Shown here: in pieces, positions 39,832 through 59,555 of the stretch
How the letters are laid out: each line of letters opens with the position of its first letter
How positions within the stretch are numbered: position 1 is the stretch's first letter
Assembly (NCBI RefSeq): GCF_000518185.1
Contig: NZ_KI912397.1
Location: forward strand, 1 to 64,000
Source: Bartonella clarridgeiae ATCC 51734
Lineage (GTDB): Bacteria > Pseudomonadota > Alphaproteobacteria > Rhizobiales > Rhizobiaceae
Length of the DNA stretch: 64,000 nt
Direction of reading: 5' to 3'
The notes under the pieces: model-generated
Databases searched by the model: none
Told to the model about the DNA's origin: nothing
What the model saw: only the letters and a program-made list of their open reading frames with translations
Position numbers and translations under genes: made by a program

Positions 39832-40622
39832 ACTGCCACCGGTGCTTTGATATGTGGCAGAGCTTCATAATTAAGCAATTCAAAGTCCTCAAATGTAAAA
39901 GAAAAAAGATCTTTCACTGCTGGATTTATAAGCATCAATGGCAAAGCACTCGGTGTACGAGATAATTGCTGTTCTGCTTGTTCAAAATGATTCAAATAAA
40001 GATGAGCATCGCCAAAAGTATGAATAAAATCTCCTACTTGTAAATTGGTTATTTGAGCAATCATCATTGTCAACAATGCATAAGAAGCAATATTGAATGG
40101 AACACCTAAAAAGATGTCGGCCGAACGCTGATAAAGTTGACAAGATAATTTACCAGCAGCAACATAAAATTGAAATAGACAATGACAAGGAGGTAAAGCC
40201 ATTTCGTCTATCAATGCAGGATTCCATGCTGATACAATTAAGCGACGTGAATCAGGATTTTTTTTAATCATAGTCAAAAGATTACTTATTTGATCAATAT
40301 GGCGCCCATCTGGTGCAGGCCACGAACGCCACTGATAACCGTAAATAGGACCAAGATCCCCTTCTTTGTCAGCCCATTCATCCCAAATGGATACGCCGTG
40401 TTCTTTTAACCATGCAATATTTGTATCACCTTTAAGAAACCACAAAAGCTCGTAAATAATCGAACGTAAATGTAATTTTTTCGTTGTCAACAGTGGAAAT
40501 CCGTCCTGTAAATTAAACCGCATCTGATACCCAAAGACCGATCGCGTCCCAACACCCGTTCGATCCAAACGGTCAATCCCATTTTTCAAAACATGGAATA
40601 AGAGATCAAGATATGCTTTCAT
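39828..40622 (-). CDS. thyA: Thymidylate synthase
   Basis: Converts dUMP to dTMP with methylene-tetrahydrofolate. 264 aa, the same length as the E. coli enzyme. [12 protein letters not shown] phosphate loop near 20, catalytic Cys146 in [12 protein letters not shown], Arg pair and [20 protein letters not shown] near 165-185. The C-terminus PHIKAPVAV is the conserved lid. First gene of the thyA-folA pair. Confidence 0.98.
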
Positions 40623-40803
40623 ATTAATGTTTATGACCGATTCTACATATTGTATAAAATAGAAATTTTAAAATTTATAAAAATACAATGCAATAAGCAT
40701 CAAAATGACCTTTCTTACAGGCAATTACCATTATACGATTGAATTTTGATGGTTCAAATTGTAAAAAGCAAACTGTAAGTAACTTAAAAAGAGGGATCTC
40801 TCC

Positions 40804-42111: not shown

Positions 42112-42130
42112 ATATTTTCATATTAAACAA

Positions 42131-42157
42131 AAAAGTCCAAAAAATTTGGACTTTTTC
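42131..42157 (+). terminator. Rho-independent terminator after kgtP
   Basis: The stem AAAAGTCCAA / TTGGACTTTTT with a short AAAATT loop and trailing T run lies 20 bases after the stop codon. It may also act on the opposite strand for the decayed DUF2853 gene. Confidence 0.85.
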
Positions 42158-42192
42158 GTAATCATGATATAAGAATTCAGTGTTAAAATTAT

Positions 42193-42499
42193 TTAAATTT
42201 TATCAAATGCGTTTACTTGTTTGGCTATCAGATAGTAAAAAGTCACACGATTTTTTCTATGATTTCCTGACATAATTTCAGGGACTTTTGAAACAATTTT
42301 TTTGCTTTTTCCTTATCAACATCCAATACATCTTGAGCCCATTTCTCAACACGCTCCAATTCTTTTTGATCTGAAATGGAAACCAATGATGCATCCTGAT
42401 GACTCATTATCAAAATTAAACGACGTCTAAGTCGTTCTATTGCAGCTTCATCAGGACTTGCATCATATACAATTTAATATCTGCTAGATTATTCATCAT
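42193..42499 (-). pseudogene. Frameshifted DUF2853 family gene
   Basis: Minus-strand fragments in three frames join into one small protein: MNNLADIKLY from the start near 42496-42499 (AGAAGGAT upstream), then SPDEAAIERLRRRL, SHQDASLVSISDQKELERV, EKAKKLF, and finally GNHRKNRVTFYYLIAKQ with a stop at 42193. The pieces DASLVS and NRVTFYYL are the family marks of DUF2853. Two frameshifts, one after residue 9 or so and one near the C-terminus, make a normal product impossible. Function of the family is unknown. Confidence 0.8.
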
Positions 42500-42660
42500 T
42501 TTGCAATCCTTCTAACAAGCGGTAACTATATACCGCCGCATCATATTTCTTCTAAATAATTAGAGGATTTAAAATATTAACAATCCCCCCTTTTCTAAAA
42601 ATTATTCTTCGTTTATATTTAAAAAGCTGTCTTTCAGCTATGGTAATAAATGGACAATGA

Positions 42661-42958
42661 AATAAACCAATTGGACCCGGGGGCGGTACCCGGCGCCTCC
42701 ACCAAAGTATAATCAACAAAGATTATATTTTTATGGGGGCGAAACAGGATCGACAAGGGTGTAAAGATTGCTCTTTTACTCGGCATTGTACCACCGTTAT
42801 CGGGCTAGATGAATAGTTGCAAATGACAACTATGCGGAGGCACGTCTCATCGCTGCTTAAGCGATGCGAAGGCTTCAAATTAAGTCTTAAACCGTCGCAG
42901 GTTTAAGCGGGGTTCGAAGGCACCTGGCAACAGAAGCCTTCACTTTTAGGCCCGTCTA
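42661..42958 (+). ncRNA. ssrA: tmRNA, circularly permuted two-piece form
   Basis: Ribosome-rescue RNA. The acceptor (3') piece comes first, ending CGCCTCCACCA at 42704. After a 30-base spacer the 5' half begins GGGGGCGAAACAGGATCGAC at 42735. GGGGGCG and CGCCTCC form the seven-pair acceptor stem. The tag frame at 42819-42860 reads ANDNYAEARLIAA followed by TAA, the alphaproteobacterial form. The permuted order and the spacer to be excised are typical of alphaproteobacteria. The outer ends are approximate. Confidence 0.93.
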
Positions 42959-43112
42959 TATTTGATTTATCAAACAGTACTTAAAATAAATTGGTGTTTT
43001 TCTTAATTAATTAGGTGCATAGTAAATAAAATATTGCTAGCTTTAAAAAACATGTTATTGGACTGTATTAGTGATATTCAATTACTGCACAAATTAAAAG
43101 GAATAAACTTCG

Positions 43113-43658
43113 ATGGTTCAAGATCAGATCCGTTACGATATTCTTGTTCAGGATGCGCTTCGCGGAGTCATCCGTAAAGTTTTATTAGAAGTAGGCAAAG
43201 CAGGTCTCCCAGGTAATCATCATTTTTTTATTACTTTCTTAACAAATGCACCAGGAATAAAAATTTCCCCTCGGCTTCAAGAGCGCTATCCTGATCAAAT
43301 GACCATTGTATTGCAGCATCAATTTAGAGATCTAAGTGTATCAGAAACTGCTTTTGAAGTAACACTCTCCTTTGGAGAAATTACTGAAAGACTGGTTATC
43401 CCTTTTAATTCTATCCAGGTCTTTTACGACCCTACAGCAGCTTTTGAAGCAGCTTTTGATCTCCCCTCTAACCTCACTTCTGGAGAGAATGAAAGTTCAG
43501 AAAATACTTCGTGCACCCCTGTTATTCCTTCAAATAAACAAAAAAAGGAAAATGTATCTACAAAACTATCAAATCTCAAAAAGGATAAAGAACCATCAAA
43601 TAGTGATTCGAAGCAAAGTGCTGATATCGTTTCCTTGGACTCCTTCCGCAAAAAATAA
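43113..43658 (+). CDS. sspB: ClpXP adaptor SspB, alphaproteobacterial type
   Basis: Binds the tmRNA-encoded degradation tag and delivers substrates to ClpXP. 181 aa: folded N-terminal domain (IRYDILVQDALRGVIRKVL, NHHFFITF, PGIKISPRL, MTIVLQHQF) to about residue 120, then a Ser/Lys-rich disordered linker and a short C-terminal motif ADIVSLDSFRKK that fits the ClpX-binding tail. It starts about 155 bases downstream of ssrA, so adaptor and tag are genetic neighbours. The ATG has AAAGGA 9-10 bases upstream. Confidence 0.9.
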   Translation: MVQDQIRYDILVQDALRGVIRKVLLEVGKAGLPGNHHFFITFLTNAPGIKISPRLQERYPDQMTIVLQHQFRDLSVSETAFEVTLSFGEITERLVIPFNSIQVFYDPTAAFEAAFDLPSNLTSGENESSENTSCTPVIPSNKQKKENVSTKLSNLKKDKEPSNSDSKQSADIVSLDSFRKK

Positions 43659-43670
43659 ATGAAGTACCCT

Positions 43671-43853
43671 ATGGTTGAAACAATTAATCTTCGTCAATTT
43701 CGAAAACAGAAAAAACGTACAGAACGAACTATTCATGCAGAAGAAAATCGCCATCGTTTTGGACGAACAAAACTTGAAAAACTTTTTGATAAAAAAGAAA
43801 CTCTAAAAGCTCAAAAATTTCTTGATCAAAATCGTCTCTCTAGTGATGAATAA
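43671..43853 (+). CDS. DUF4169 family small basic protein
   Basis: 60 aa from ATG 43671 (MVETINLRQFRKQKKRTER); an alternative ATG lies four codons upstream, immediately after the sspB stop. Highly charged and helical, with NRHRFGRTKLEKL matching the family core (N-R-x-x-FGRTK-x-E-K). Such genes commonly follow sspB in Rhizobiales. Function unknown. No membrane segment or signal peptide. Confidence 0.75.
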   Translation: MVETINLRQFRKQKKRTERTIHAEENRHRFGRTKLEKLFDKKETLKAQKFLDQNRLSSDE

Positions 43854-44208
43854 AAATAAACAAGAATGATACTATTAATTAGTTAAAAGCAATTTTCTCT
43901 AAAAGTTTTTTTATTTCATCAAAAAATGTGATTTTTTTATAATTATCAGTGTAATTTCATATTGAGAAAAGCCTTACCCGTCTTTACGTTGCAATTTTTT
44001 TATGCACCCATTATAATCAAAGAATAAAATAAGCTTGCAGCTTTATTTACGCATATATGTCCTTGATAGCTTCTTACATTACAACATTATTCTTTACCTT
44101 TTCTTGTAATCTCTATGCCTTTATTTAACTTAGCATGTTGCGTTTTTTTTAAAGAAATAATTTTTATCGAGCGTTCAAATCAAAAAAAATACTAGACAAA
44201 ATTATAAA
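43854..44208. other. Spacer upstream of the uvrD-type helicase gene
   Basis: 355 AT-rich bases with no recognisable gene. Confidence 0.5.
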
Positions 44209-46662
44209 ATGAGTGACTTTTCCGATCATATAACGTCTTTTAAAAATGATGTCTCTTCTTATAAGCCTGAAAATAATTCCAGCTTAGTTAATCATACTTC
44301 AGTAGAAAGAAGAACAACGCAATACGAACCTGAATATTTAGAAAAGCTTAACCCAGAACAGAAACAAGCTGTCATAAACACAGAGGGTCCGATTTTAGTT
44401 CTTGCGGGTGCTGGTACTGGAAAAACTCGTGTTCTTACTACCCGTATTTCTCATATTTTACATCTCGGTCTTGCTCATCCTAAGCAAATATTGGCCGTTA
44501 CTTTTACCAATAAATCCGCACATGAAATGAAAATGCGTATTGGTGAACTTATCGGTAAAACTGTTGAAGGTATGCCTTGGCTTGGAACATTTCATTCTAC
44601 TGGTGTAAAGATTTTACGCCGCTATGCAGAGCTTGTTGACTTAAAAAGCAACTTTACAATTCTTGATCGTGACGATGTTATTCGTCTTTTAAAACAGCTC
44701 ATTCAAGCCGAAGGATTGGATGATAAGCGTTGGCCAGCACGTAACTTAGCAATGATGATTGATTCTTGGAAAAATCAAGGACTTTCGCCAAACCATATAT
44801 CAGAAGGCGATTCTTATTCTTTTGGAAATGGCATGGGACGACAACTTTATCGCAGTTATCAAGATCGACTAAAAAGTCTCAATGCCTGTGATTTTGGTGA
44901 TCTTTTGCTGCACCCTATTTTCATCTTTCAACATAACCCAGATATTCTTCGTGAATATCATGATAAATTTCGCTATATTCTTGTAGATGAATACCAAGAC
45001 ACAAATACAGCACAATATCTCTGGCTCCGCCTTTTAGCTCAACGCCATGAAAAACAAGTCAACCTTTGTTGTGTAGGAGATGATGATCAATCTATTTATG
45101 GATGGCGCGGTGCAAAAGTCGATAATATACTGCGCTTTGAAAAAGACTTTTCTCCTGCAAAAATTATTCGCCTAGAACGTAATTACCGCTCTACATCACA
45201 TATTTTAAAAACTGCTGCTCATCTCATTTCTCATAATCAGGATAGGCTTGGAAAAACACTTTTTTCTGATCAAACAAATAGTGACGATGCAAAAGTGAAA
45301 ATTCATGCTGCATGGGATTCAGAAGAAGAGGCCCGCGCTATCGGAAAAGAAATTGAACAAGCACAACAAAATGGACATTTATTAAATCATATAGCCATAT
45401 TAGTGCGAGCATCATTTCAAATGCGTGAATTTGAAGATCGTTTTGTCACACTTGGTCTCAACTATCGCATTATTGGTGGTCCACGCTTTTATGAACGAAT
45501 GGAAATACGTGATGCTTTGGCTTACTTACGTGTTGTTGTTCAACCAGCTGATGATCTGGCTTTTGAACGTATTATCAATACGCCCAAACGCGGTTTAGGA
45601 AACACAACACTTCGTCATCTTTATGATAGTGCCCGTGCACGCTCCATTCCCCTCTTTGTTGCAGCCACCGAACTAATTGCAACGGATGAGCTAAAACCAA
45701 AAATACGCAATGCTTTACGAAATGTTGTGGAAAATTTCCGCCACTGGCAAGGTATGCTACAACATACACCACACACGGAGCTTGCTGAAACAATACTTGA
45801 TGCTTCAGGCTATACAACAATGTGGCAAGAAGATCGTTCACCAGAAGCGCCAACACGATTAGAAAATCTTAAAGAAATGATCCGTTCTATGGAACAATTT
45901 GAAAATCTTCCTAGTTTTTTAGAACATGTTTCACTGGTTATGGATTCTGAAAGCAATGAAAATACAGATGCAGTTAATATCATGACCCTTCATTCCGCTA
46001 AAGGACTTGAATTTGAAACAGTCTTCCTTCCTGGTTGGGAAGAAGGTCTCTTTCCTCATCAGCGCTCATTAGATGAAGGTGGCCGTTCAGGATTAGAAGA
46101 AGAACGGCGACTTGCTTATGTAGGACTAACAAGAGCAAAAAAATACTTGCACATATGGTGTGTATCCAATCGACGAATTCATGGACTTTGGCAATCTACA
46201 CTTCCTTCCCGTTTCCTCAATGAATTACCCAAAGAACATATAGAAGTAACAGAAATCGAAACATCTTATGGTGGTTATGGTCAAGCACGATTCAAAGGCC
46301 AAAATCCTTTTTATAATAATTACTCAACATCAGGATGGCAACATGCTCAGAAAAATCAAACAGAGGCAACAGATAATAATTGGGGAAAACGACCATCTGT
46401 TCAGATTGAGCGAATTGGTTATGGTGATGACATTAATCCAAATATTGGGATAACCAGAATTCGCCAACAAAAAAATATTGAAGGAAAGACCATTGAGAAA
46501 TCAATTTCTGATACACTCTCAGCTTTCTCTATAAATGATCGGATTTTTCATATAAAATTTGGTTATGGTCAAATTTCAGCAATAGATGGCAACAAACTAA
46601 CTATCTCCTTCGATAAAGCCGGAGAAAAGCGTGTTCTTGATAATTTTGTAACAAAAGCTTAG
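44209..46662 (+). CDS. uvrD: UvrD/PcrA-type ATP-dependent 3'-5' DNA helicase
   Basis: Superfamily 1A helicase for excision repair, mismatch repair and removal of roadblocks. 817 aa. LNPEQKQAV and Walker A LAGAGTGKTRVL near residue 67, TFTNKSAHEMK, Walker B ILVDEYQDTN, motif III GDDDQSIYGWRGA, RLERNYRS, VNIMTLHSAKGLEFETVFLPG and VGLTRAKK. The C-terminal tail carries a PcrA-like Tudor-type element (FSINDRIFHIKFGYGQISAIDG). Its last ~400 bp exist again in decayed form at 49975-50400. Confidence 0.95.
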   Translation: MSDFSDHITSFKNDVSSYKPENNSSLVNHTSVERRTTQYEPEYLEKLNPEQKQAVINTEGPILVLAGAGTGKTRVLTTRISHILHLGLAHPKQILAVTFTNKSAHEMKMRIGELIGKTVEGMPWLGTFHSTGVKILRRYAELVDLKSNFTILDRDDVIRLLKQLIQAEGLDDKRWPARNLAMMIDSWKNQGLSPNHISEGDSYSFGNGMGRQLYRSYQDRLKSLNACDFGDLLLHPIFIFQHNPDILREYHDKFRYILVDEYQDTNTAQYLWLRLLAQRHEKQVNLCCVGDDDQSIYGWRGAKVDNILRFEKDFSPAKIIRLERNYRSTSHILKTAAHLISHNQDRLGKTLFSDQTNSDDAKVKIHAAWDSEEEARAIGKEIEQAQQNGHLLNHIAILVRASFQMREFEDRFVTLGLNYRIIGGPRFYERMEIRDALAYLRVVVQPADDLAFERIINTPKRGLGNTTLRHLYDSARARSIPLFVAATELIATDELKPKIRNALRNVVENFRHWQGMLQHTPHTELAETILDASGYTTMWQEDRSPEAPTRLENLKEMIRSMEQFENLPSFLEHVSLVMDSESNENTDAVNIMTLHSAKGLEFETVFLPGWEEGLFPHQRSLDEGGRSGLEEERRLAYVGLTRAKKYLHIWCVSNRRIHGLWQSTLPSRFLNELPKEHIEVTEIETSYGGYGQARFKGQNPFYNNYSTSGWQHAQKNQTEATDNNWGKRPSVQIERIGYGDDINPNIGITRIRQQKNIEGKTIEKSISDTLSAFSINDRIFHIKFGYGQISAIDGNKLTISFDKAGEKRVLDNFVTKA

Positions 46663-47108
46663 TACAACTAACTAAAAGTTATCTTTCCAAATAGAAATTT
46701 AATTTTCAATCGTATTTTAATTATAAGTCATTGATTTATAAAGATAGTTCACTATTTTTCATGCCTATAAGAACAATAAAATATTACAGACCCTTTGCAC
46801 ATATCCGTTGCTTTTGCACATATCCGTTGCTTAAGTGACAAACTAAGAAAAATAGAAAATCTCTGTTTTTTCTTAAATAATTTTGTATGATAATCATCCT
46901 TGCTTAAGCAGAGGAAATGTCTATCCTATTTTAGGAAGAAATTTGCAACAAAATTGCATACTAATTTTTAGCATAAAAAACATAATAAAATCAACATCTA
47001 TCAAATTTCACATTTTTTATAAGCTTTTCACTCTCTTTTTTGCAACAAACAACACCGCAAACCAGTAATATCACTTAAACCGTACCATTCTCAAAAGTTC
47101 TAACACCG
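46663..47108. other. Spacer between uvrD and YGNA protein 1
   Basis: About 445 bases between convergent genes. It contains a 19-bp tandem duplication (listed separately) and sequence also found, decayed, at 50350-50480. No gene seen. Confidence 0.6.
46794..46831. repeat. 19-bp tandem duplication
   Basis: TTTGCACATATCCGTTGCT occurs twice head to tail in the spacer downstream of uvrD. Confidence 0.85.
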
Positions 47109-48170
47109 CTATAAACCTCTGTAATGCTTTTTTATAAAAGATTTGGAACGGTCATGAATTTCCTTTGTGTTAATTTGATTATTATTGGAAATTTCGTTGT
47201 TATCTGAAATATTGATACCAGTATAAATTTCAGCATTGCCGTTAATTATAATATTTTTGGAAATCTTGGCATTACCATAAACTCTGGCATTACCATAAAC
47301 CTCAGCATTACCATAAACTCTGGCATTACCATAAACCTCAGCATTACCATAAACTTTGGCATTACCATAAACCTCAGCATTACTATAAACTTTGGCATCA
47401 CCGCAAATCTCAGCTCTGCCAGAAACATTAGCATTACCATAAACCTTACTATTTTCACAAATACTGGCATAACTAAAAACCCTAGCATTGCCACAAACTT
47501 CAACATTACCGAAAACCTCAGCACATCCCAAAACTTTTGCCTTATTCCAAATTTCAGCATTACCATAAACTTTAGCATTGCCACAAACCTCAGCATCATC
47601 CAAAACTTTGGCATTTTCAAAAATTTCAGCATTGCCATAAATTTCAGCATTGCCATAAATTTCAGCATTGCCATAAATTTCAGCATTGCTATAAACTTTG
47701 GCAGCACTACTAATCTTAGCATTACCAAAAACTTTCACATGGCCATTAACCTTGGCATTACCAAAAATCTGAGCATTGGCAAAAATCGAAGCATTATCTC
47801 CAACCACAGCATTACCATGAATCCTAACATCATCTTTAATCTCAGCATTATCACAAACCTTAGCATTATCACAAACCTTAGCATTATCACAAACCTTAGC
47901 ATTGCCAGAAACATAAGCTTTGGCGTAAACGCAAGCATCACTATCAACCCAACAATCGCCTTCATGAGACAAATTCGTTTCATTTGCAATAAAACCACCA
48001 AGGCTACCTGCCCTTATATATCCAAAGTCTCTAAGAGCCATAATACGGTAAAGTTTATGAGAACCGATCGTAATCACTTCGTCTGTAAGTTTATACTTTT
48101 TGAAAAAAGTATCATCAGCTTGAGAATTGCTCCTATCAAATAGATTCTCTAATATCTGCAATATTTGCAC
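47109..48170 (-). CDS. YGNA hexapeptide-repeat protein 1
   Basis: 353 aa. A conserved N-terminal module (FKKYKLTDEVITIGSHKLYRI, ALRDFGYIRAGSLGGFIA, ETNLSHEGDCWV) is followed by about 35 six-residue repeats of the pattern Y-G-N-A-(E/K/R)-V, then a short basic tail ending FIKKHYRGL. Period-six repeats with small residues at fixed positions predict a left-handed beta-helix. There is no signal peptide. The listed start is a GTG. Upstream codons in another frame (SDNWGNISANIADI) resemble the N-termini of the two paralogues, so the true 5' end is probably frameshifted. Function unknown. Confidence 0.75.
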   Translation of the reverse strand: MQILQILENLFDRSNSQADDTFFKKYKLTDEVITIGSHKLYRIMALRDFGYIRAGSLGGFIANETNLSHEGDCWVDSDACVYAKAYVSGNAKVCDNAKVCDNAKVCDNAEIKDDVRIHGNAVVGDNASIFANAQIFGNAKVNGHVKVFGNAKISSAAKVYSNAEIYGNAEIYGNAEIYGNAEIFENAKVLDDAEVCGNAKVYGNAEIWNKAKVLGCAEVFGNVEVCGNARVFSYASICENSKVYGNANVSGRAEICGDAKVYSNAEVYGNAKVYGNAEVYGNARVYGNAEVYGNARVYGNAKISKNIIINGNAEIYTGINISDNNEISNNNQINTKEIHDRSKSFIKKHYRGL

Positions 48171-48449
48171 TAATATTACCCCAATTATCTGATTGCTTAA
48201 AAACGTTTTTAAAGGAAAATTTTTTTATTTCCCCACAAAATCCTTTTCTAAAAGGCCAAAAAATAAACTTATACTTATAAAGACGTAAAATTGTAAAACT
48301 AAATTAAAGAATATTCCCTAAGTTGATGACACCGTTAAAATTGCTAACAACGGTATAGTGTACAGTGATACGCTAATAGACAACAGCACTTGCAATGTAA
48401 AAACAGTATTGATTTTACTAAATTGCTATTTTCAACAGCTTTAACACTT

Positions 48450-49853
48450 TCATAAACATAAGCTGTGATTTTTAGATTTAGTTTGATGGATTTTGACATC
48501 ATTATGAATTTCCTTCTTATTAATCTGATCACTAGTAGAAATTACAACGTTATCTAAAATCTCAGAACCATAAACTTCAGCAATACCTTGAACTACAGAA
48601 TCGCCACAAACTTGAGCTTTTCCGTGAACCTTAGCAAAATTAAAAATTCCGGCATTACCATAAACCTTAGCATTCCCATAAACTTCAGCATGGCCACGAA
48701 CTATAGCATTACCTGAAACCTCAGTATTGCCAAAAACACTGGCATCACCAAAAACCCGAGCGTTTCCATAAACTCTGGCATTACCAAAAATCCCACCATT
48801 GTCATAAATACGGGCATCGCCATAAATCTCAGCACTATTAAAAATCTCAACTTTACCGCAAGTTTGAGCATTATCATAAATATGGGCATTACCATAAACA
48901 TTAGCACTGCCTAATACTTTAGCATTGCCAGACACCTTAGCATTGTCAAACACCTTAGCGTTTTCAGCAACTTGAGCACAACCATAAACCTTAGCATTAT
49001 TATAAATCTCAGCCTTACCATAAATCATGGCATCACCACCAATCTTAGCATGACCCGAAACTTTAACTTTTTCGTAAACTTTAACATTTTCATGAAGCTT
49101 AGCATTTTCACAAACCTGAGCATCACCCCAAACTGCAGCATTGCCGTAAACCGAGGCATTATCAAAAATCATGGCACAGCCATAAATCTTAGCATTATCG
49201 TAAATCTCTACATTATTGAAAACTGTAGCATAACCACAAATGCAAGCATCACCATGAATCCTGGCATTGCCAGAAATCTGAGAGCTGTCATAAACTGCGG
49301 CATTGTCATAAATCTGAGCACTGGCCAAAACCCTAGTATTGCCAAAAATCTGAGCCTGTCCATAAATTTTGGCATCATGCCAAACCCCAGCATCACCATA
49401 AACTCTTGCATTACCACAAACTTCTGCATCATCAAAAATCTGAGCATCGCCAGAAACACGAGCTGTTTCGTAAACTCGAGCATCATAATTAACCCAACAA
49501 TGGCCTTCATGGGATAAATTAGTTTCATCTGCAATAAAACCACCAAGATCACCTGCCTTTACATGTCCAAAATCCCTAAGGGCTCTAATGCGATAAAGCT
49601 TATGAGAATTGATCGATATTTCTTCGTCTGTGAGTTCATATTTCTTTAAAGTAGCATTAACAGAAACCTTATTTTCATCGATAACCTGAGCATGACCAGG
49701 TACAACCTGAAAATTATCTTCATCGGATAAATTCCTTGCATCTTCACTAATATTACCTAAGTCATCTACAATGAGACGTTTAGAGACCTTAAAAGTTTTA
49801 GTTTGATCACCCACTTCGGCATCAACTACTTTTTTTTCATCTTTCTCGAACAT
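48450..49853 (-). CDS. YGNA hexapeptide-repeat protein 2
   Basis: 467 aa with an intact N-terminus (MFEKDEKKVVDAEVGDQTK). An acidic, probably disordered leader of about 70 residues precedes the shared module LKKYELTDEEISINSHKLYRI...GHVKAGDLGGFIADETNLSHEG. Then come some 53 hexapeptides (VYGNAR, IYDNAK, VFGDAS and the like) and a tail KSKNHSLCL. The spread of residues at the first two positions is wider than in protein 1, so the array is older. The ATG at 49853 has AGGGAAAT upstream. No signal peptide or membrane segment; cytoplasmic or exported by an unknown route. Confidence 0.85.
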   Translation of the reverse strand: MFEKDEKKVVDAEVGDQTKTFKVSKRLIVDDLGNISEDARNLSDEDNFQVVPGHAQVIDENKVSVNATLKKYELTDEEISINSHKLYRIRALRDFGHVKAGDLGGFIADETNLSHEGHCWVNYDARVYETARVSGDAQIFDDAEVCGNARVYGDAGVWHDAKIYGQAQIFGNTRVLASAQIYDNAAVYDSSQISGNARIHGDACICGYATVFNNVEIYDNAKIYGCAMIFDNASVYGNAAVWGDAQVCENAKLHENVKVYEKVKVSGHAKIGGDAMIYGKAEIYNNAKVYGCAQVAENAKVFDNAKVSGNAKVLGSANVYGNAHIYDNAQTCGKVEIFNSAEIYGDARIYDNGGIFGNARVYGNARVFGDASVFGNTEVSGNAIVRGHAEVYGNAKVYGNAGIFNFAKVHGKAQVCGDSVVQGIAEVYGSEILDNVVISTSDQINKKEIHNDVKIHQTKSKNHSLCL

Positions 49854-49904
49854 GAAGAATTTCCCTATTTAATCTCTAAAAAATTACATATTTTCACCAT
49901 ATCT

Positions 49905-49932
49905 CTCATAATGTTTTTTTATAAAATGTCAA
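49905..49932 (-). promoter_or_regulatory. Candidate promoter of YGNA gene 2
   Basis: TTGACA (49932-49927), 16-bp spacer, TATGAG (49910-49905), about 50 bases before the ATG. The -10 is weak. The arrangement matches the stronger promoter ahead of YGNA gene 3. Confidence 0.5.
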
Positions 49933-49974
49933 AATGTTTTTTAATGCATGAAATTATGTATTAATTTCTAAATT

Positions 49975-50400
49975 AAAGAAACACTTTACGGTGGTTATGG
50001 CCAAACACACCTCAAAGGTCAAAATCCCTTTCGTAATAATTATTCAACGCTAAGATAGCAATGTCTCGGAAAAACAAACGATAGCGACATTTAAATACTT
50101 GAAGAAAATTATCAGCTTTTGTTATGGTAATATTAATCCAAAATTAGGATGACCAAACTCCGTCAACAAAAAATATTAAAAGAAAGATTATTGCAAAATC
50201 AATCTTTTTGGCATATCCTTAACTGTCTCTAATAAATGATCAGATTTTCATATAATGGGTTATGGGTCAAATTTCATCAATAGATAAACTTTCTTGTCGG
50301 ATAAAACGTGAGAGAAGCCTATTTCTGATATTCTGATATTATTGCATCAAAAAAATTTAGTATAACACACTATAAAGTTATCTTTCCCAATAAAAGCCTA
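49975..50400 (+). pseudogene. Decayed duplicate of the uvrD 3' end
   Basis: The stretch from TACGGTGGTTATGGCCAA onward follows 46265-46690 of uvrD base by base with many substitutions and small deletions: GGTGGTTATGG, TCAAAGG(T/C)CAAAATCC, AATAATTA(T/C)TCAAC, then the CAACAAAAAATATT and GATCGGATTTTTCATATA regions. Stops and frameshifts abolish coding. The following ~90 bases (AAGTTATCTTTCC, TTTATAAA(G/A)ATAGTTCA) also match the sequence after uvrD. Confidence 0.88.
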
Positions 50401-50492
50401 ATTTACAACAACTCAACCACAGCTTAATGATAATTAATGATAAATCTATTGTTTATAAAAATAGTTCATCATATTCATCGGCTTTAACACCC

Positions 50493-52028
50493 TTATAAAC
50501 CTAGATAATGGCCTTTAAATTTAGTTTCACAAATTTTAAAATCGCTATGAATTTTATTAATTTGATCATTATTGAAAATTTCAGTGTTATTTAAAATACT
50601 GATATTACCAAAAATATTAGCATCGCCGTGAACCCGCGCATTGTCATAAATCTTGACATCACCACAAACTTTAGCACAACCATAAATCTTAGCATTTCCA
50701 AAAATATTAGCATTGCCGTAAAGCTGTACATTGTTATAAACACAAGCATTACCATAAACCTCAGCGTTACAAAAAACCCTGGTATTACCATAAATTTGGG
50801 CAGCATCAAAAATTCTAGCACTACCTAAAACCGAAGCGCGACCGAAAACTTTTGCATCATTATAAACACTAGCGTTACGATAAATCTTAGCCTCATCGTA
50901 AACTTGAGCGTTGCCATAAACACAGGCATCACCACAAACCCTAGCTAGACCGAAAATTTTTACATTACCACGAACATCAGCATTACAACAAATCTTAACT
51001 TTATCGTAAACTTGAGCATTGCCATAAACACAAGCACCACCAAAAACCTTAGCACCACCAAAAACCTTAGCATTATTAAAAATTTTGGCATTCTCGCTAA
51101 TCTTAGCATTGCCATAAATTTCAGCTTTATCGTAAACTATAGAACTGCCGCAAATTAGCGCATCATCATAAACTTTGGCATAATCATAAATTTTAGCATT
51201 CCCAAAAATCTCAGCTGCACCAAAAATCTCAGCTTCATCGAAAACCTGAGCATCATCAGAAATGCAGGCATAATCATAAATCTTAGCATCTCCAAAAACA
51301 CTTGAATTGCCACAAATTACAACTCCATCGCGAATCTCAGCTCTACCAAAAACTGTGGCACTACCAAAAATCTCAGAGTTACCAAAAACTTTGGCATTTC
51401 CACAAACCTGAGCCAAATCAGAAACCTCGACATTACCACAAACATCAGCACAGCCAGAAATTATGGAATTACCATAAATCTCAGCATTACCATAAACTTG
51501 AGCACTATCACAAATCTCAGCGTTATTACCAACCTTAGAATCATCAAAAACCCTAGCACTACCATGAACTTCTGCAAAATCATAAATCCCAGCATTACCA
51601 GAAACATGAGCTGCTTCGTAAACTCGAGAAAAATCATAAACCCAACAATTCCCTTCGTGGGATAAATTTGTTTCATTTGCGATAAAACCGCCAAGATCAC
51701 CTGCTTCTACATCTCCAAAATCTCTAAGAGCTATAATGCGATAAAGTTTCTCAGAATTGACCAATATTGACTCCTCTGTAAGTTCATATTTCTTGAAAAA
51801 ACCATTACCGCGAACCTTATTTTTATCGTAGATCTGAGCGTGATCGGTAGCAACCTGCAAATTTCCTTCATCGAATAGATTGTCTATGTCTTCAATAACA
51901 TCACTCAAATCATTTGAACGGATACGTTTAGAGTTCTGCTTAGAGTTCTTAAGAACTTTAGTGATGCAATCAGAGCCTTTATCATCATCAACTCTTATTT
52001 TATCTATAGATTTATATTTTTTGGACAT
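50493..52028 (-). CDS. YGNA hexapeptide-repeat protein 3
   Basis: 511 aa, the longest of the three. Charged leader MSKKYKSIDKIRVDDDKGSD to about residue 80, shared module FKKYELTEESILVNSEKLYRI...GDVEAGDLGGFIANETNLSHEG, then roughly 57 hexapeptides (YGNAQV, FGNAKI, YDEAKI) and a tail KFKGHYLGL close to that of protein 1. ATG 52028 with GAGAA upstream and a strong promoter at 52107-52134. It stands next to the decayed uvrD tail exactly as protein 1 stands next to the real one. Function unknown; similar modules occur, as I recall, in prophage-encoded repeat proteins. Confidence 0.85.
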   Translation of the reverse strand: MSKKYKSIDKIRVDDDKGSDCITKVLKNSKQNSKRIRSNDLSDVIEDIDNLFDEGNLQVATDHAQIYDKNKVRGNGFFKKYELTEESILVNSEKLYRIIALRDFGDVEAGDLGGFIANETNLSHEGNCWVYDFSRVYEAAHVSGNAGIYDFAEVHGSARVFDDSKVGNNAEICDSAQVYGNAEIYGNSIISGCADVCGNVEVSDLAQVCGNAKVFGNSEIFGSATVFGRAEIRDGVVICGNSSVFGDAKIYDYACISDDAQVFDEAEIFGAAEIFGNAKIYDYAKVYDDALICGSSIVYDKAEIYGNAKISENAKIFNNAKVFGGAKVFGGACVYGNAQVYDKVKICCNADVRGNVKIFGLARVCGDACVYGNAQVYDEAKIYRNASVYNDAKVFGRASVLGSARIFDAAQIYGNTRVFCNAEVYGNACVYNNVQLYGNANIFGNAKIYGCAKVCGDVKIYDNARVHGDANIFGNISILNNTEIFNNDQINKIHSDFKICETKFKGHYLGL

Positions 52029-52080
52029 AGTAAAATTCTCTTATCTAGTCTCTACAAAATTTTGTGTGCTCTCTAAATCT

Positions 52081-52116
52081 TTTGTTTTATTATAATACTT
52101 TGTTTTATTATAATAC
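52081..52116 (-). repeat. 18-bp tandem duplication overlapping a promoter
   Basis: TTTGTTTTATTATAATAC occurs twice head to tail (52081-52098, 52099-52116). Each copy supplies a TATAAT -10 box on the minus strand; only the distal one has a well-spaced -35. Confidence 0.85.
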
Positions 52117-52134
52117 AAAGTGATTTTTTGTCAA
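52107..52134 (-). promoter_or_regulatory. Promoter of YGNA gene 3
   Basis: Consensus TTGACA (52134-52129), 16-bp spacer and consensus TATAAT (52112-52107) on the minus strand, about 80 bases before the ATG. One of the best sigma-70-type matches in the window. Confidence 0.75.
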
Positions 52135-52327
52135 AAATACCAAAATGTTCTTATTTTTTTTTGAATAAATTATACGAAACACCGTACCCAATCTTTATAT
52201 TGGATAGGATGTTTTCATAGTAATAGTATTTGCATACTCATCAACATACATCCTTTGCCTGCCAAAACAGTGATTGCAAAATTAAGTTATAAGCATTATA
52301 ATTTTTCATATTTAAGAGAGTCAACCT

Positions 52328-52921
52328 ATGAAAAATATAATACGCATATTGGGGTTAACGATTGTATTTCTTGCTAGTGTTTTTACGTATGATACGTTTA
52401 GGAATAAACCCCTAGGTGAGAATTTCACACTCACTGCTTCTAATGGTAAAATTGTTACTGAAGCGGACATCCGAAGCAAATCTTCAGTAATCTTTTTTGG
52501 CTACACTATGTGCCCTGATACCTGCCCTACTACACTTGTGGATCTTAATCGGTGGCTTACAGCAATTGGTCCAAATGTCGATAAATTAAATGTATGGTTC
52601 GTCACTGTTGACCCTGAACGCGATACACCAGAAGTGCTTCGTGAATATTTAAGCAATTTTACTGATAAAATCATTGGTATAAGTGGAGACCCTAACGCAG
52701 TTCATAAAATGGTTAGCTCTTTTAATATTGTTGCTGAAAAAGTACCCGGAACAGATGATGACAACTATACCTATAATCACACAGCAGCAATTTTCTTGCT
52801 TAAAAAAGGTGGAAAACTAGCTGGCGTTATTCCATATAATGTCGAAGAAAATAATAACAAATTAAAAGATGATATCGCTATTACACGACTTAAAAAACTC
52901 GTTTCAAATTCGGCTTACTAA
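52328..52921 (+). CDS. SCO1/SenC family copper chaperone
   Basis: Thioredoxin-fold protein that delivers copper to the CuA site of cytochrome c oxidase. 197 aa. One N-terminal membrane anchor (IIRILGLTIVFLASVFTYDTF), copper ligands Cys62 and Cys66 in FFGYTMCPDTCPTTL, and His151 in YNHTAAIFLL, so the complete binding set is present. VTVDPERDTPEVL is a family mark. ATG with AGAGAG upstream. prmA begins 12 bases after its stop. Confidence 0.94.
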   Translation: MKNIIRILGLTIVFLASVFTYDTFRNKPLGENFTLTASNGKIVTEADIRSKSSVIFFGYTMCPDTCPTTLVDLNRWLTAIGPNVDKLNVWFVTVDPERDTPEVLREYLSNFTDKIIGISGDPNAVHKMVSSFNIVAEKVPGTDDDNYTYNHTAAIFLLKKGGKLAGVIPYNVEENNNKLKDDIAITRLKKLVSNSAY

Positions 52922-52933
52922 TTAAAGAATAGT

Positions 52934-53803
52934 ATGTTGCAACAAATTCGTCTGTACTGTACATTTTTTAAAAATGAGGCAGAACAATTTTACACTCTTG
53001 TGGAAACAGTCTTTGAGGAGGAAGGTTATCCTGTTGCTCTTACAGAAATAGATGAAAAAAATGCTATTTATGAGATTTCGCTTTATGTTGATCAAGCAAA
53101 CCAAGAAAGTGCTTTCCAACAATTTTCACGTGCTCTTGCAATAGATCCAGATAAAATTAACATAGAAATTTTACCCAATATTGATTGGGTAAAACAAAGT
53201 CTTGAAGGACTGAAACCGGTACGTGTTGGTCCTTTTTTTCTTCACGGTAGCCATGAACGACAAAACATTCCACCTAATGTTTTGCCCATTGAAATTGAAG
53301 CTAATCAAGCTTTTGGTACAGGTCATCATGGAACGACATTTGGTTGTTTAGAAATGATTACCAAAGTAATGCAAAATGAAAACCCGCAAAATGCCCTTGA
53401 TCTTGGTACGGGTAGCGGGATATTAGCTATTGGTATCGCTATGCTCAAACCTATTGCTGTACTTGCAGCTGATATAGACCCAATAGCCATTCAAGTAGCA
53501 CAACATAATATTAGCCTCAATGGTGTCACAGAACATGTTACAGCTGTTACAGTCACAGGTTTGAACGATGATAGAATCTCATTATGCACCCCTTTTGATC
53601 TTATCGTTGCCAATATCCTTGCCAATCCTTTAATCGAACTTGCAAAAGATATGGCACAAGCATTGCGAAAAGATGGATCTATTATATTGTCTGGGATCCT
53701 TGAAGAACAGCACAATGATGTTTTAAAAGCTTATGTCAAACAAGGCCTAAAACATATTGAGACATATCTTCAGCAAGGATGGGCTACTTTGCATCTGAAA
53801 TAA
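52934..53803 (+). CDS. prmA: Ribosomal protein L11 methyltransferase
   Basis: Trimethylates ribosomal protein L11 using SAM. 289 aa. N-terminal L11-recognition domain, then AFGTGHHGTTFGCLEM, the SAM-binding motif ALDLGTGSGILAIGIAML and FDLIVANILANPLIEL (the N-I-L-A motif). ATG at 52934. The next gene begins just 17 bases after its stop, so sco1, prmA and the aminopeptidase gene form one unit. Confidence 0.94.
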   Translation: MLQQIRLYCTFFKNEAEQFYTLVETVFEEEGYPVALTEIDEKNAIYEISLYVDQANQESAFQQFSRALAIDPDKINIEILPNIDWVKQSLEGLKPVRVGPFFLHGSHERQNIPPNVLPIEIEANQAFGTGHHGTTFGCLEMITKVMQNENPQNALDLGTGSGILAIGIAMLKPIAVLAADIDPIAIQVAQHNISLNGVTEHVTAVTVTGLNDDRISLCTPFDLIVANILANPLIELAKDMAQALRKDGSIILSGILEEQHNDVLKAYVKQGLKHIETYLQQGWATLHLK

Positions 53804-53820
53804 AAGAAAAGAACATCATT

Positions 53821-55647
53821 ATGTATCAATCTTTTGAAACAATAACAAATCCTGCTTATGCTGCAGAGCGTGTTGCAGCTCTTCGTAAAGAATTTGATCG
53901 CTTTGGACTAGATGGCTTTCTAGTACCACATACAGATGAACATCAAGGAGAATATGTTCCTAAACATGCTCAACGTCTTGGCTGGCTAACTGGATTTACT
54001 GGATCAGCTGGTATAGCATTGATTTTAAAAGACAAAGCAATCATATTTACAGATGGGCGTTATAAACTTCAAGTTCGTCAGCAAACAGATTCTCGTATCT
54101 TTTATTATGAAGATTTAGCGACCTGCTCACTAGCACAATGGTTTGAGAAAAACAGACAAAAGCTTTCAATTGGCTTTGATCCATGGCTTCATACCATTAC
54201 TGCTACAGCCATATTGAGACAAGCATTAGAATTGAAAATAGGTGGAAAACTTATAGAAAGCCAACCCAATCTCATCGATCTTATTTGGGATGATAAACCA
54301 AAATTTCCACAAACTCCTTTATCAATTCATCCTCTTAAATACGCGGGATATAACAGCGATGAAAAGCTGTCACGAATTCGCAAAAACATAAAGAAATCTG
54401 GTGCAAATGCCTTTATTCTAACGGATCCATCTTCTATTGCATGGACATTCAATATACGTGGTAATGACGTTGCTAATACACCCTTTTCCCTTTCTTTTGC
54501 TATAATTTTAGTCAAAGAAAAACCGACTTTATTTATTGATAGTAAAAAAATTGGTAATGAGCAAAAACAATATCTGGAACGTTATGCAAAATTATATGAA
54601 CCAGAAAAACTTATTTCAAATATCAAAGATCATATTCAAAAAGGTACTGTTTTTGCTTTAGATCCATTGTTAACGTGCGAAAAATTACGCACCGTTATTG
54701 AAGAAAAAGGCGGATCTTTTATTACACTGACTGATCCTGTTATCTTACCACGTGCCATTAAAAATACTACAGAACTCAATGGCTCACGCAAAGCACATTT
54801 AAGTGATGGTGTAGCACTTACCCGTTTTTTTTCTTGGCTGGATAGACAAAGACCAGGTACAATTAATGAAATTGCTGCTGCCAAAAAATTAGAAAAATTT
54901 CGTATCATGACAGCACAGAAAATGGGAATGAAACTCGAAGATCTTTCATTTGATACCATTTCAGCAGCAGGTAAAAATGCTGCAATTATTCATTATCATG
55001 TAACCACTAAAACAAATAGGCTGTTAAATGCTGGTGAGCTTTATCTTGTTGATTCAGGTGGACAATACCGAGATGGTACAACAGATGTCACCCGTACAGT
55101 AGCAATTGGAAATGTTGGAGAAGAAGAAAAACGCTGTTTTACACTTGTCCTCAAAGGCATGATTGCTCTTTCAAGTGCAAGATTTCCTAAAGGTACACGT
55201 GGACAAGATATTGATGTTTTAGCACGCAGTGCATTATGGAAAGCTGGTTTTGATTATGCACATGGCACTGGTCATGGAGTTGGTTCTTATCTCTCTGTTC
55301 ATGAAGGACCACAAAATCTTTCACGCTATGGAAGCCAAGAACTTATTCCCGGTATGATTATTTCGAATGAACCCGGATATTACCGTGAACAAGCTTTTGG
55401 TATTCGTATTGAAAATTTGATGATTGTCAAACCAGCTCAAAAAATTGCCGATGGCGATATAGACATGCTATCATTCGAAACACTTACAAATTGTCCTATT
55501 GATCGACAATTAATCCTGATAGAGCTTTTAACAACACAAGAGAAACAATGGCTTAACGACTATCACGCCCATGTTTACCAAGTTAATGCACCCTACCTTA
55601 ATAAAGAAGATAAAAAATGGCTTAAAAAAGCTACAATGCCTCTTTGA
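53821..55647 (+). CDS. pepP: Xaa-Pro aminopeptidase (M24B family)
   Basis: Cleaves N-terminal residues ahead of proline. 608 aa, the long three-domain form with two creatinase-like N-terminal domains (DGFLVPHTDEHQGEY) and a C-terminal pita-bread domain. Metal ligands: Asp in LVDSGGQYRDGTTDVTRT (two), His in GTGHGVGSYLSVHEGP, Glu in ISNEPGYYRE and Glu in GIRIENLM. All are intact. The frame overlaps prmA upstream, but MYQSFETITNPAYAAERV at 53821 is the natural start. Confidence 0.92.
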   Translation: MYQSFETITNPAYAAERVAALRKEFDRFGLDGFLVPHTDEHQGEYVPKHAQRLGWLTGFTGSAGIALILKDKAIIFTDGRYKLQVRQQTDSRIFYYEDLATCSLAQWFEKNRQKLSIGFDPWLHTITATAILRQALELKIGGKLIESQPNLIDLIWDDKPKFPQTPLSIHPLKYAGYNSDEKLSRIRKNIKKSGANAFILTDPSSIAWTFNIRGNDVANTPFSLSFAIILVKEKPTLFIDSKKIGNEQKQYLERYAKLYEPEKLISNIKDHIQKGTVFALDPLLTCEKLRTVIEEKGGSFITLTDPVILPRAIKNTTELNGSRKAHLSDGVALTRFFSWLDRQRPGTINEIAAAKKLEKFRIMTAQKMGMKLEDLSFDTISAAGKNAAIIHYHVTTKTNRLLNAGELYLVDSGGQYRDGTTDVTRTVAIGNVGEEEKRCFTLVLKGMIALSSARFPKGTRGQDIDVLARSALWKAGFDYAHGTGHGVGSYLSVHEGPQNLSRYGSQELIPGMIISNEPGYYREQAFGIRIENLMIVKPAQKIADGDIDMLSFETLTNCPIDRQLILIELLTTQEKQWLNDYHAHVYQVNAPYLNKEDKKWLKKATMPL

Positions 55648-55851
55648 TTTTTAAACACGCACCCTTAAATTAAATATTTAAATAAAAAGCTCCAAGAAAG
55701 TTAATTTTCATTCCAGAGATAGAGTGAAAAACACAAGCGATACTCTAATTTCTTGAAATCAGAGGTTAAGGATTATCAGCCAGTTTTGCTAGGGTTTTTA
55801 AAAAAACTGACAAGAGGTCATCAGATATAAAAATGAACTAATCCTTTCTTT

Positions 55852-58800
55852 TTAAAATTGGTAGCGTATTCCGCCGGAAACACTTGTACCAGAAAAACCT
55901 GCTTTAGTGAGTTTATGTTTATATAACAAATCACCATGAAGCACTATTTTAGAAAGCAATTGGGCATGAACACCTAAACCTGCTTCCACTGTAGAACCAA
56001 ATGCTCCTAACTGAAAAGCATCTTTAAAATGCACTATCCGTTTATTTTCATAATTATGGGCAAAATGAAATTTGCTATAAAAAGAAACAATACGTCCTTC
56101 TTCAGACCCCATCATAGTTTTAGTGAAACGACCACCAATACTTGCAATCCATTGGTTATGATTTCCTAAATCAATATCAAACCGATCAATATCACGAGCC
56201 TTGTCAAACATCACAGACTGATAAATAACTTGCAGCTGTGGCTCAACAACAAATCCATCATAATTCGTTAAAATAGCTTGACCTCCCATTAAAGAAGAAC
56301 TCAGAAGTTCACCCCTTAACGTCGCTGTTTTCCCTCGAACCAAAGTCGAAACATCACCTTTAAAGGAACCACAAGACATAACTCCATTCACATAAAAGCC
56401 TGTATCATACTGTAAGTGAGCATAAAGCTTTCCTGACCATTTATTAAATATACTCTTCTGACTTTGTTCAACAACATAAGGCTGAAGAGAAAGGCTACTA
56501 TAAGTTCCTATAGCTCCCAAAGACAAAGCACTATGCTTACTCTCTAACGTCTTTAATACAACACCTGCCATCATAGCATTATAGTCAAGATCAGCGCTAT
56601 AACCATATTCAAAAACAGTCAAATTTGAAGCATAGCGATAATTACTACCATAACCATGTATGAAAAAGTTTGCCTTTCCATTGTGCCCAGTTTCATTGGT
56701 CCCATTGTGCGTAGATTCTAATAGTTCATAGTGATTATTTATATCTACCAAATTCGCATGGAATAAAGCATGAGGCAAGACTAAATAACTTGGAAGCTGT
56801 GGCACAACTACCGGCACTCTTTTTTCAGGTAAGCCTGGCTTCTGGAAACGTCGAGGTTTAAATGATGCAAGGTCTAATGACATAGGTTTTAAAAAAGGGA
56901 GAAAACTAATATATTCAATCTGAAGACGATAATCCCAAAAAGGCTTACTAGATTTACTGTCTCTATTTTCTCTTTCCTCATTATTTCCAACCAATTTTTG
57001 TTTTGGATCCGCCGCCCCTAAAGCAGAACTTGGACCATAAGCATAAAGACGATATTGATAAGGTAAATTATACAAGGTGATATAATCATTAAATAATTTA
57101 AAAGAATCTTCCTGAGCTGCTCCAGAAACCTGAATAATAGAAATACCCTTGTTATTATTTTTTGCACCTCGACCTATTTCGTCTCCTGGACTTCCTGAAA
57201 CAGCTAAAACATGAACTGTAGTAGTACCAGATACGTCTCCATGAATTAAAAGGCGATCCGTCTTTTGACGAGCAATCTCCCCTCCTTGATTTAGATAAGT
57301 ATTAATATAAAGTTCTGCATTGCCCTGCGCTGTATAAACAGTGCCGCTCCCTTTACCAATACGGAGCGTTTGATAAATATTGGATGTTGGCTTTTCAAAA
57401 ATAATGCTACTATCTGAAAGGATCATAGTAGAAATAGATGAATCTGTAACACTCAAATCTTTCGAAGGTTGCTGTTTCCTTTTTGTCAAAGTCCATGTCG
57501 AATGATTTTTTAAATGCAAATTTGCTATAGCTCCATTAGTAATTAAAGAACCACCTTCCAGTTTAGATCCATCAGCCTCAACTTTTACAACGCCACTATT
57601 AGCTTGTAACAAAAGATTGCCAGAAAGAGTTGCATTCTCTGACAATTTAAAGGTGAGATTATGGGTATTATCAGACTTATCACTATAAATAACCGCACTT
57701 TTGGGAACAGAAAAATTTGTTTTCTTCAAAGAAACAACTATACTATTGTGATTTTCTAGAGATTTTCTATTATTTCCATTAGAAATGTGATTTTCTGGAG
57801 ATTTTCCATTAGAAGATTGGCTCTTCTTATCCGAATAATGTAAATACATGCCATAAAATTGAGCACTATTTACTTGAATATTTGCACTATCAATATCAAC
57901 CTCTATTGGTCCTGAAGCTTTTTTTTCTTCTCTAGACCCTCCAACGTCAAATACCAGACCATGCGCATATTCTAGAGTAACATTTCCCTCCTCCATCTTA
58001 AAAACACTATCTGGATGTATGTGAATAGCAGTTTGAACAGTAGAAGAAAATATAGCATGCTGACGGTTAACAGTATCACTGCCTTTAACATTATTACGAA
58101 TAGTAATATTTTCTAAAATAACCTCTCCTGTATCTATATAAACTGCATTACCTGCCGTAAAAGTAATGTCTCCCTTGTTTTCATCTCCCATCATAATAAT
58201 AGAAGCATTTTCCTTATTTAAAAGACCGACTCCCTTATCACCTACTGTAATGCTTACATCCTCTAACCCAATATAAGCTCTATTACCATGAGAATAAACA
58301 GCAACCTCACTATCTTTAATTGATCCCGATGTTATGTATATTATACTATCGGCTTCAGCATTAAGACCTACTGTTAGGTCTTTCAAGGTTGCTTCACCTA
58401 CAGTAACTGCTCCCTGTTGTTTTACCCACACACCATATATATGCTCAGTACCTTTAGGCTGCTCACTCTTTTGTACTGGACCAAAAATCTTCATATCGTC
58501 CACATCAATAACAGTGCCCAATTCCGACGCATATATTGCAACTACCCCTTCATTTAGTGCAGCTAACTCTTCATTGTTGTTTTTACTGTTATTTTTTTCT
58601 TTCTTCTTTTTTGAACTATTGCAATTTTTCTGATCGGATTTGCAACAAAAGGCTTCACTTTTATTAGGTATACTACATGTTATATTTTTTATTGTACGGA
58701 CCTTTATATTTCCATCGTCTCTATAAATTTCTGCAACAAAAGCACGATCGTCCGATTCTATTTTACGAGGAACTTTAGTTTTCGGATAAACAGTATCAGC

Positions 58801-59470: not shown

Positions 59471-59555
59471 TATTCCATCATTGAAGACAATAATTATATT
59501 CACATAAAATTAAATATAAGATATGCTTAAAGTGCTAAATATCTAAAAATTATTA

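Follow-up and report, generated by a model that had tools for sequence, protein, structure and literature searches.

Three tandem YdcK-type beta-solenoid genes with extended hexapeptide arrays in Bartonella clarridgeiae, and a lead to phage recombination cassettes

We analyzed three adjacent genes for hexapeptide-repeat proteins, here called p1, p2 and p3, in a 64,000-nucleotide stretch of Bartonella clarridgeiae ATCC 51734 (contig NZ_KI912397.1, positions 1 to 64,000; hereafter the window). Judged from their sequences, p1-p3 belong to the YdcK-type beta-solenoid family, which is recognized but without known function. Members of this family share a module-plus-array anatomy, are distributed over mobile elements, lie next to recombinase cassettes in several Bartonella prophages and are present at three shared chromosomal loci in five related Bartonella genomes. 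The three genes represent a known but uncharacterized family in an unusual setting: it was apparently captured three times into the chromosome, its arrays are extended here, and it gives a lead to the recombination cassettes of phages. The reading that we favor, with slightly better than even confidence, is that p1-p3 are phage early-region solenoids which the host would have kept as cytoplasmic, non-enzymatic scaffold rods.

The first-pass annotation of this DNA knew of no function for the arrangement in Bartonella. A lack of known relatives is not supported: p1-p3 are members of the YdcK/phrog_5070 family, found in phages, Bartonella plasmids and prophages. The Pfam model of the YdcK beta-solenoid (PF18836) scored above its gathering threshold of 30 bits in all three proteins (45.5, 77.7 and 54.4 bits). 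The PHROGs family phrog_5070 matched them with E-values of 1.4e-142, 1.2e-139 and 1.4e-141, the best stretch spanning most of its 182 positions, and the modules of p1-p3 matched the 53-position module family phrog_20149. Scores against the NCBIfam equivalog model of YdcK (NF040481) were 126.4, 137.5 and 158.3 bits, all below its cut-off of 350. Among PDB sequences, p3 alone found the YdcK crystal structures (2f9c and 2pig; E = 2.4e-21), and a 29-member profile with the p3 segment as first sequence aligned its positions 7-166 to residues 2-177 of 2f9c (whole-sequence E = 5.1e-41). After YdcK, this profile found mainly LpxA, LpxD and gamma-carbonic-anhydrase chains; it matched 59 distinct PDB sequences at E <= 0.01, and no chain named bactofilin was among them. 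YdcK of Salmonella and E. coli is therefore the best sequence match of the family among solved structures, with a homologous N-terminal module followed by a hexapeptide beta-solenoid. It differs from p1-p3 in that these fall below the equivalog cut-off, reach up to 61 hexads, have a putatively disordered N-terminal extension in p2 and p3 and end in a locus-specific C-terminal tail. Excerpts from the literature list YdcK as a predicted enzyme (PMC2831072, in part) or use it as a modelling template, calling it trimeric and LpxA-like (PMC4372379, in part). Among the papers listed by our searches of an open-access library, none dealt with the function of the YdcK-type/phrog_5070 family or with a link to recombinases.

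The three genes are intact open reading frames (ORFs) on the minus strand, with intergenic spacings of 279 and 639 nt. The first gene of the cluster is p3 (50493-52028; 511 aa, ATG start). Its N-terminal extension (residues 1-77; 51798-52028) is predicted to be disordered, with an AlphaFold2 confidence (predicted local distance difference test, pLDDT) below 50, and is similar in p2 and in syntenic relatives. It is followed by the module (residues 78-129; 51642-51797), a predicted beta-hairpin cap, and by an array of 61 well-formed hexads, or about 20 turns (50535-51641). The paralogue p2 (48450-49853; 467 aa, ATG) carries its module at 49494-49652 and 53 well-formed hexads at 48492-49493, and the paralogue p1 (47109-48170; 353 aa, GTG) its module at 47949-48104 and 41 well-formed hexads, many of them near-perfect YGNA units, at 47175-47948. 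The charged extension that precedes the module in p2 and p3 is mostly missing from p1. Compared with the p3 module, the module of p2 shows 76% identity and that of p1 73%. The paralogy claimed in the first-pass annotation is supported, as is its description of a constant module with variable arrays.

Register assignment yielded 46, 57 and 63 hexads in p1, p2 and p3, respectively, of which 41, 53 and 61 were well-formed, with the pattern V/I-Y/F-G/D-N/D-A-K/E. The earlier counts of 35, 53 and 57 were close to these values, if low for p1. The six-residue step is broken once, three times and twice in the three arrays, which are thus nearly uninterrupted, and Tandem Repeats Finder independently identified arrays with a period of 18, 36, 54 or 108 nt inside each gene. 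The C-terminal tails read ...SFIKKHYRGL in p1, ...TKSKNHSLCL in p2 and ...TKFKGHYLGL in p3: the proposed (F)K.HY.GL ending is loosely conserved, its HY.GL form being found in p1 and p3 and not in p2. Strongly hydrophobic stretches are absent from p1-p3 (maximum 19-residue Kyte-Doolittle mean of 0.87-1.04; no signal-peptide predictor was run), in agreement with the earlier view that they lack a signal peptide.

We then considered the distribution of the family. A 103-aa query covering the module and part of the array of p3 matched 43 of 61 Bartonella genomes; four genomes presented more than 60 matches, a count in which repeats can yield several matches per gene. The module family was found in 3 of 150 genomes of the order, including B. 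clarridgeiae itself. The family was present in 86 of 50,697 phage records and in 22 of 72,556 plasmid records, seven of them from Bartonella and some of the 22 being chromosome-sized. Plasmid pBT01 was matched at five places, which correspond to a run of five hypothetical genes at a distance of at least about 1.7 kb from a restriction-modification gene; pBGR3 was matched at one place about 1.6 kb from parA. Phage proteins with the same module and array, such as orf229 of Streptococcus phage Sfi19 and gp43 of Mannheimia phage 587AP2, are of unknown function; their annotations include hypothetical, polymer-forming cytoskeletal, acyltransferase and glycerol kinase. The phage and prophage-type relatives are shorter than the window genes, which lie outside any recognizable phage: the median length was 221 aa for 96 module ORFs in 72 scanned loci, a sample that takes in about two ORFs from the window's own group and some cut by contig ends. 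Many of the 72 loci carry two or more module genes in tandem, suggesting that tandem paralogues are a habit of the family. One contig of a Saccharibacteria metagenome-assembled genome (L118, 4501-11907) contains six module genes within 7.5 kb, and module genes were also seen in other Saccharibacteria loci (L074, L108 and L123). A locus of Pasteurella bettyae (L113, 5134-10678) has two, located between neighbors that look Sir2-like and DUF262-like by eye.

A Bet- or Erf-type annealing protein was recognized in 18 of the 72 loci, accompanied by a RecE/YqaJ-type exonuclease in 17 of the 18 and by an integrase in 12. The module gene lies just upstream and on the same strand in 16 of these 18 loci, 61-1021 bp from the best annealing-protein match; in the two exceptions (L077 and L079) it is 2.4-3.0 kb away on the other strand. 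No Bet/Erf-type gene was recognized in the available flank of the other 54 loci. Some of these are from outside Bartonella or on short contigs, and others show a second context, close to portal, terminase or tail genes; in two Bartonella loci of this kind (L057 and L085), tail or portal genes lie on the opposite strand at 0.8-2.3 kb from the module gene. Among 14 phage records that we viewed, a RecT, Erf or Rad52 protein was annotated in the flank shown of six. Erf directly follows the module gene in two of those six, and one record presents an exonuclease directly before the module gene, after RecT. Pfam searches added three more records, two with AAA_24, which can presumably mark Sak4-type annealing proteins, and one with a PD-(D/E)XK nuclease and a single-stranded DNA (ssDNA)-binding protein; no annealing or recombination gene was recognized in the flank of the other five. 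In an Anaerotruncus locus (L111), a YqaJ nuclease lies about 1.5 kb downstream of the module gene and is preceded by an ORF that resembles an annealing protein by eye, without a Pfam match. The loci are related to each other rather than independent, and we regard the association as a strong lead and not as proof. We also considered a tail or surface fiber and rejected it: the window locus lies between cellular genes, its proteins have no strongly hydrophobic stretch, and no annotated head, tail or fiber gene was adjacent to the relative in any of the 14 phage records, where many neighbors are labeled "hypothetical".

In the window, p1-p3 are located between a uvrD/pcrA-like gene (44209-46662, plus strand) and a sco1-like gene (52328-52921, plus strand), a position that we call locus A; the names of neighboring genes, here and below, are those that we take their sequences to indicate. 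No homologue of Bet, Erf, exonuclease, integrase, RuvC, portal, terminase, tail or Ant was found in positions 40001-60000, and the window copies are not within a recognizable prophage. In the genome as a whole, Bet was the one prophage gene searched for, and all that was found of it was a short fragment containing two stops. Fifty-nine genomes of the genus had both flanking genes on one contig, and five of them presented locus A: three genes in B. clarridgeiae (G000) and in G015, and one in G005, in Bartonella rochalimae (G044) and in Bartonella sp. AR 15-3 (G059). The frames are open in four of the five, the gene of AR 15-3 being interrupted. These five genomes are the nearest in sco1 (88-91% identity, compared with at most 80% in the others), a comparison of this gene and not a species tree. 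The uvrD-sco1 gap was at most 936 bp in 42 genomes, which is shorter than p1 (a comparison by gap length). Another 11 genomes had a gap of 2.4-4.0 kb and no family match in the genome, and the last, with a 23-kb gap (G027), was read and contained no module.

The same five genomes all carry a short family member between prs-like and yfiH-like genes (locus B) and a long one between tsaD-like and holA-like genes (locus C). Locus B is open in G000, G015, G005 and G044. In a midpoint-rooted tree of 134 modules, loci A (9 tips, 0.93), B (4 tips, 0.99) and C (2 tips, 0.98) each formed a clade and were not joined to each other, and we therefore read them as three probable captures. The sequences behind this tree are short, and it lacks one module of locus B and three of locus C that the search pattern missed. 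The proteins of the three loci differ in charge: p1-p3 are mildly acidic (net charge of -4, -15 and -15), whereas the five locus-B and locus-C proteins measured are basic (+3 to +9). Charge is thus not conserved, and DNA mimicry by charge was rejected on this ground. Near locus A, the window encodes an autotransporter with an AC_1 autochaperone and a beta-domain (55852-58878, minus strand); G015 and AR 15-3 each have a relative in the corresponding position. In B. rochalimae (L049, 6255-11001), a 1582-aa open frame that runs to the end of the locus, with an aminopeptidase P-like start, lies between the solenoid gene and sco1 and is a local rearrangement.

We further examined how these genes evolve, using simple pairwise counts of nonsynonymous and synonymous changes (dN/dS) on protein alignments, which are rough in the arrays. 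The module (35 codons) presented a dN/dS of 0.15-0.31 in seven of nine comparisons. For whole genes, the ratio was 0.39-0.66 at loci B and C, relative to 0.13-0.33 for sco1, uvrD and prmA. The module is mostly under purifying selection, and the whole genes change fast. Without selection, we would roughly expect between 4.7 (p1) and 15.4 (p3) nonsense hits per lineage, or about 4-16 per lineage over loci A to C, an estimate based on half the synonymous divergence, with the value assumed for p2 and locus B. That the arrays are nevertheless open argues against neutral drift. Paralogues also seem to exchange sequence: in G015 the middle gene looks recombinant, as it shares 99.5% identity with gene a over its last 433 bp but has gene c as its closest match over the first 382 bp (87%). 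Downstream of p3, 213 bp are similar to the DNA that follows p1 (65%), which would be expected of tandem copies that were duplicated together with their flank.

A sigma-70-like promoter (TTGACA-16-TATAAT, 12 of 12 consensus positions) is predicted 78 nt upstream of p3 (52107-52134, minus strand). Such a full match was reached in 2 of 982 half-overlapping 260-nt stretches, both of which may be the p3 site itself. The promoter-like site upstream of p2 (49905-49932, minus strand; TTGACA-16-TATGAG) has 10 of 12 positions, a score reached by 89 of the 982 stretches. In all five genomes, a TTGACA box precedes the leading locus-A gene, and its promoter-like partner ends 52-78 nt before the start. By eye, the leader before the start codon is alike in four locus-A genes compared and unlike in five prophage-type genes.

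The favored scenario would run as follows. The ancestor of the five genomes would have acquired three members of the family from mobile elements. The one at the uvrD-sco1 locus may then have undergone tandem duplication, its array growing past the size usual in prophages, and have gained a disordered N-terminal extension. Each protein would be a rigid, cytoplasmic, non-enzymatic rod of about 14, 18 or 20 turns that associates through its conserved module or cap end, the module binding a conserved partner while the array determines the reach and presents a side surface that changes fast. The rod may have an early role in phages, alongside the cassette for ssDNA-annealing recombination, and this setting points to an original role close to ssDNA annealing. 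The cap is more constant, the rod is variable in length and changes fast, and no enzyme model above its cut-off, export-like stretch or BID (intracellular delivery) domain was seen; this combination best fits a scaffold or spacer in the cytoplasm. Of the length-variable fiber or scaffold family proposed at first, a scaffold or fiber-like rod would still be the most natural guess. The analysis places a puzzling repeat protein in a large family of phage proteins to which databases assign no function. Two features provide a handle on this family: its repeated occurrence next to recombinase genes, seen in phages of several groups of bacteria, and its natural retention in host chromosomes. It also offers a case in which solenoid length and surface change via repeat turnover and paralogue recombination while the cap is more constant.

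Several observations weigh against this scenario. The phrog_5070 profile is unspecific, as it also matches 6 of 14 well-known control genomes; the module family matches one of the 14 and is the better marker. All three loci are interrupted in AR 15-3, which indicates that they are dispensable, and locus C, open in G000 and G015, is partly masked in G005 and G044, where its integrity is not fully visible. Decay in other strains had been named beforehand as a refuting outcome, and it was found in this one genome out of five. Two of the nine module comparisons were not purifying (p1 against G015, 1.20 with five changes; locus C, 0.87). In six locus-A comparisons, whole-gene dN/dS was 0.64-1.12, near relaxed evolution, although inflated by unaligned hexads. 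Finally, the hand of the AlphaFold2 models disagrees with that of YdcK, and AlphaFold2 has been described as over-predicting confident solenoids for repeat sequences (PMC11795689, in part).

The high whole-gene ratios, the interruptions in AR 15-3 and the finding of no more than a short Bet fragment in a genome search for that gene could also indicate that p1-p3 are stranded mobile-element cargo without host function. Their frames would then stay open owing to an 18-nt repeat code poor in stop-prone codons and to recombination between repeats, which purges lesions. We consider this unlikely, if the most serious of the alternatives: the frames of loci A and B are open in four genomes and those of locus C in two (two more being partly masked) against the nonsense hits expected, the module is mostly constrained, and a promoter-like box is common to the locus-A genomes.

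The structural evidence is divided. AlphaFold2 predicted a solenoid periodicity with a pLDDT above 90 over the middle of p3, which, with a relative of known crystal structure, supports the beta-solenoid type of array noted in the first pass. Its left-handed beta-helix (LbH) fits the homology to YdcK and not the modeled arrays, since both AlphaFold2 models fit right-handed helices more closely, with YdcK and LbH enzymes only at a root-mean-square deviation (rmsd) of 9-14 Å. The first model yielded no Foldseek match at E <= 0.001, and YdcK was the only LbH enzyme among the best 50 matches of the first VIA-align comparison; neither result is evidence against an LbH fold. For the second model, the only Foldseek matches at E <= 0.001 were four chains of YdcK, and LbH enzymes, which we take to be left-handed, appeared with a mirror-like rmsd. 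AlphaFold2 and homology are thus in conflict over the helix hand: the modeled array is apparently right-handed while the homology to YdcK implies a left-handed one. A solenoid turn rises by about 4.8 Å. At this rise and with three hexads per turn (PMC3046976, in part), the arrays of p1, p2 and p3 would be rods of roughly 66, 85 and 97 Å.

Because of the hand of these models, we retained as a rival a bactofilin-like polymer, in which right-handed triangular beta-helices assemble end to end into filaments. The modeled array resembles BacA, and the Pfam bactofilin model (PF04519) was above its gathering score of 27.9 in all three proteins, by a modest amount (36.5, 35.8 and 30.4). We nevertheless find this reading quite doubtful. 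The Foldseek match of the model to bactofilin was weak (rank 46, E = 6.3, 4.8 Å), the right-handed model may be an artefact, and by sequence the closest solved relative is the LpxA-like YdcK, followed mostly by LpxA, LpxD and gamma-carbonic-anhydrase, as reported above. Bactofilins have a single domain of roughly 110 aa (PMC12448750, in part), whereas the arrays of p1-p3 are two to three times longer (41-61 hexads, about 246-366 residues).

It is improbable, in our view, that p1-p3 are translocated or surface-exposed host-interaction proteins, in which the basic C-terminal tail at locus A would serve as a signal for type IV secretion and the array would vary under host pressure. In eight locus-A proteins, the net charge of the last 12 residues was between +1 and +4, type IV signals often consist of a few positive or hydrophobic C-terminal residues (PMC8714903, in part), and effector-like genes are present elsewhere in the window. 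This basic end is not special, however, since five locus-B and locus-C proteins end with a net +1 to +3 without the locus-A tail pattern. The proteins lack a strongly hydrophobic stretch, and no BID domain (PF18543) was found in them at E <= 1 by the same library that detects it in the window Fic protein. That protein, Bep-like and with Fic and BID domains, is encoded at 25622-27307 (minus strand) and lies between two genes that encode YopJ-family serine/threonine acetyltransferases (PF03421; 20309-21223 and 27722-28711, both minus strand; E = 1e-70 and 2e-72).

A more speculative extension, which we regard as decidedly improbable, is that YdcK-type solenoids would be an unrecognized accessory of phage ssDNA-annealing cassettes, coupled to unrelated annealing proteins (Bet, Erf, RecT and Rad52-like). 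One Bartonella group would have captured them three times and lengthened their arrays, and the host rods would engage or poison the same machinery of incoming phages, as a form of superinfection control. Least probable of all is a hexapeptide acyltransferase with a long array: LpxD, LpxA and NeuD models of NCBIfam match (E to 6e-15) and PF00132 is above its cut-off in p1 only, but each acyltransferase match listed for NCBIfam scores far under its cut-off, and the near-uninterrupted arrays leave no obvious substrate-binding loop. The prophage LbH O-acetyltransferase NeuO resembles p1-p3 in being prophage-encoded, in its hexapeptide LbH and in a length-variable repeat tract, but what varies there is a tract of heptads that precedes a fixed enzyme and was not resolved in the crystal (PMC3046976, in part). 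In p1-p3 the solenoid itself varies, and no enzyme domain was seen.

Two minor observations concern annotation. In Vibrio phage 1.139.B (L140, 4041-4382), the repeat DNA of a solenoid gene and its neighbor is annotated as six spacers of a clustered regularly interspaced short palindromic repeat (CRISPR) array, probably a false call on hexapeptide-coding repeats. The window also contains an alphaproteobacterial permuted transfer-messenger RNA gene (RF01849) at 42587-42944 on the plus strand.

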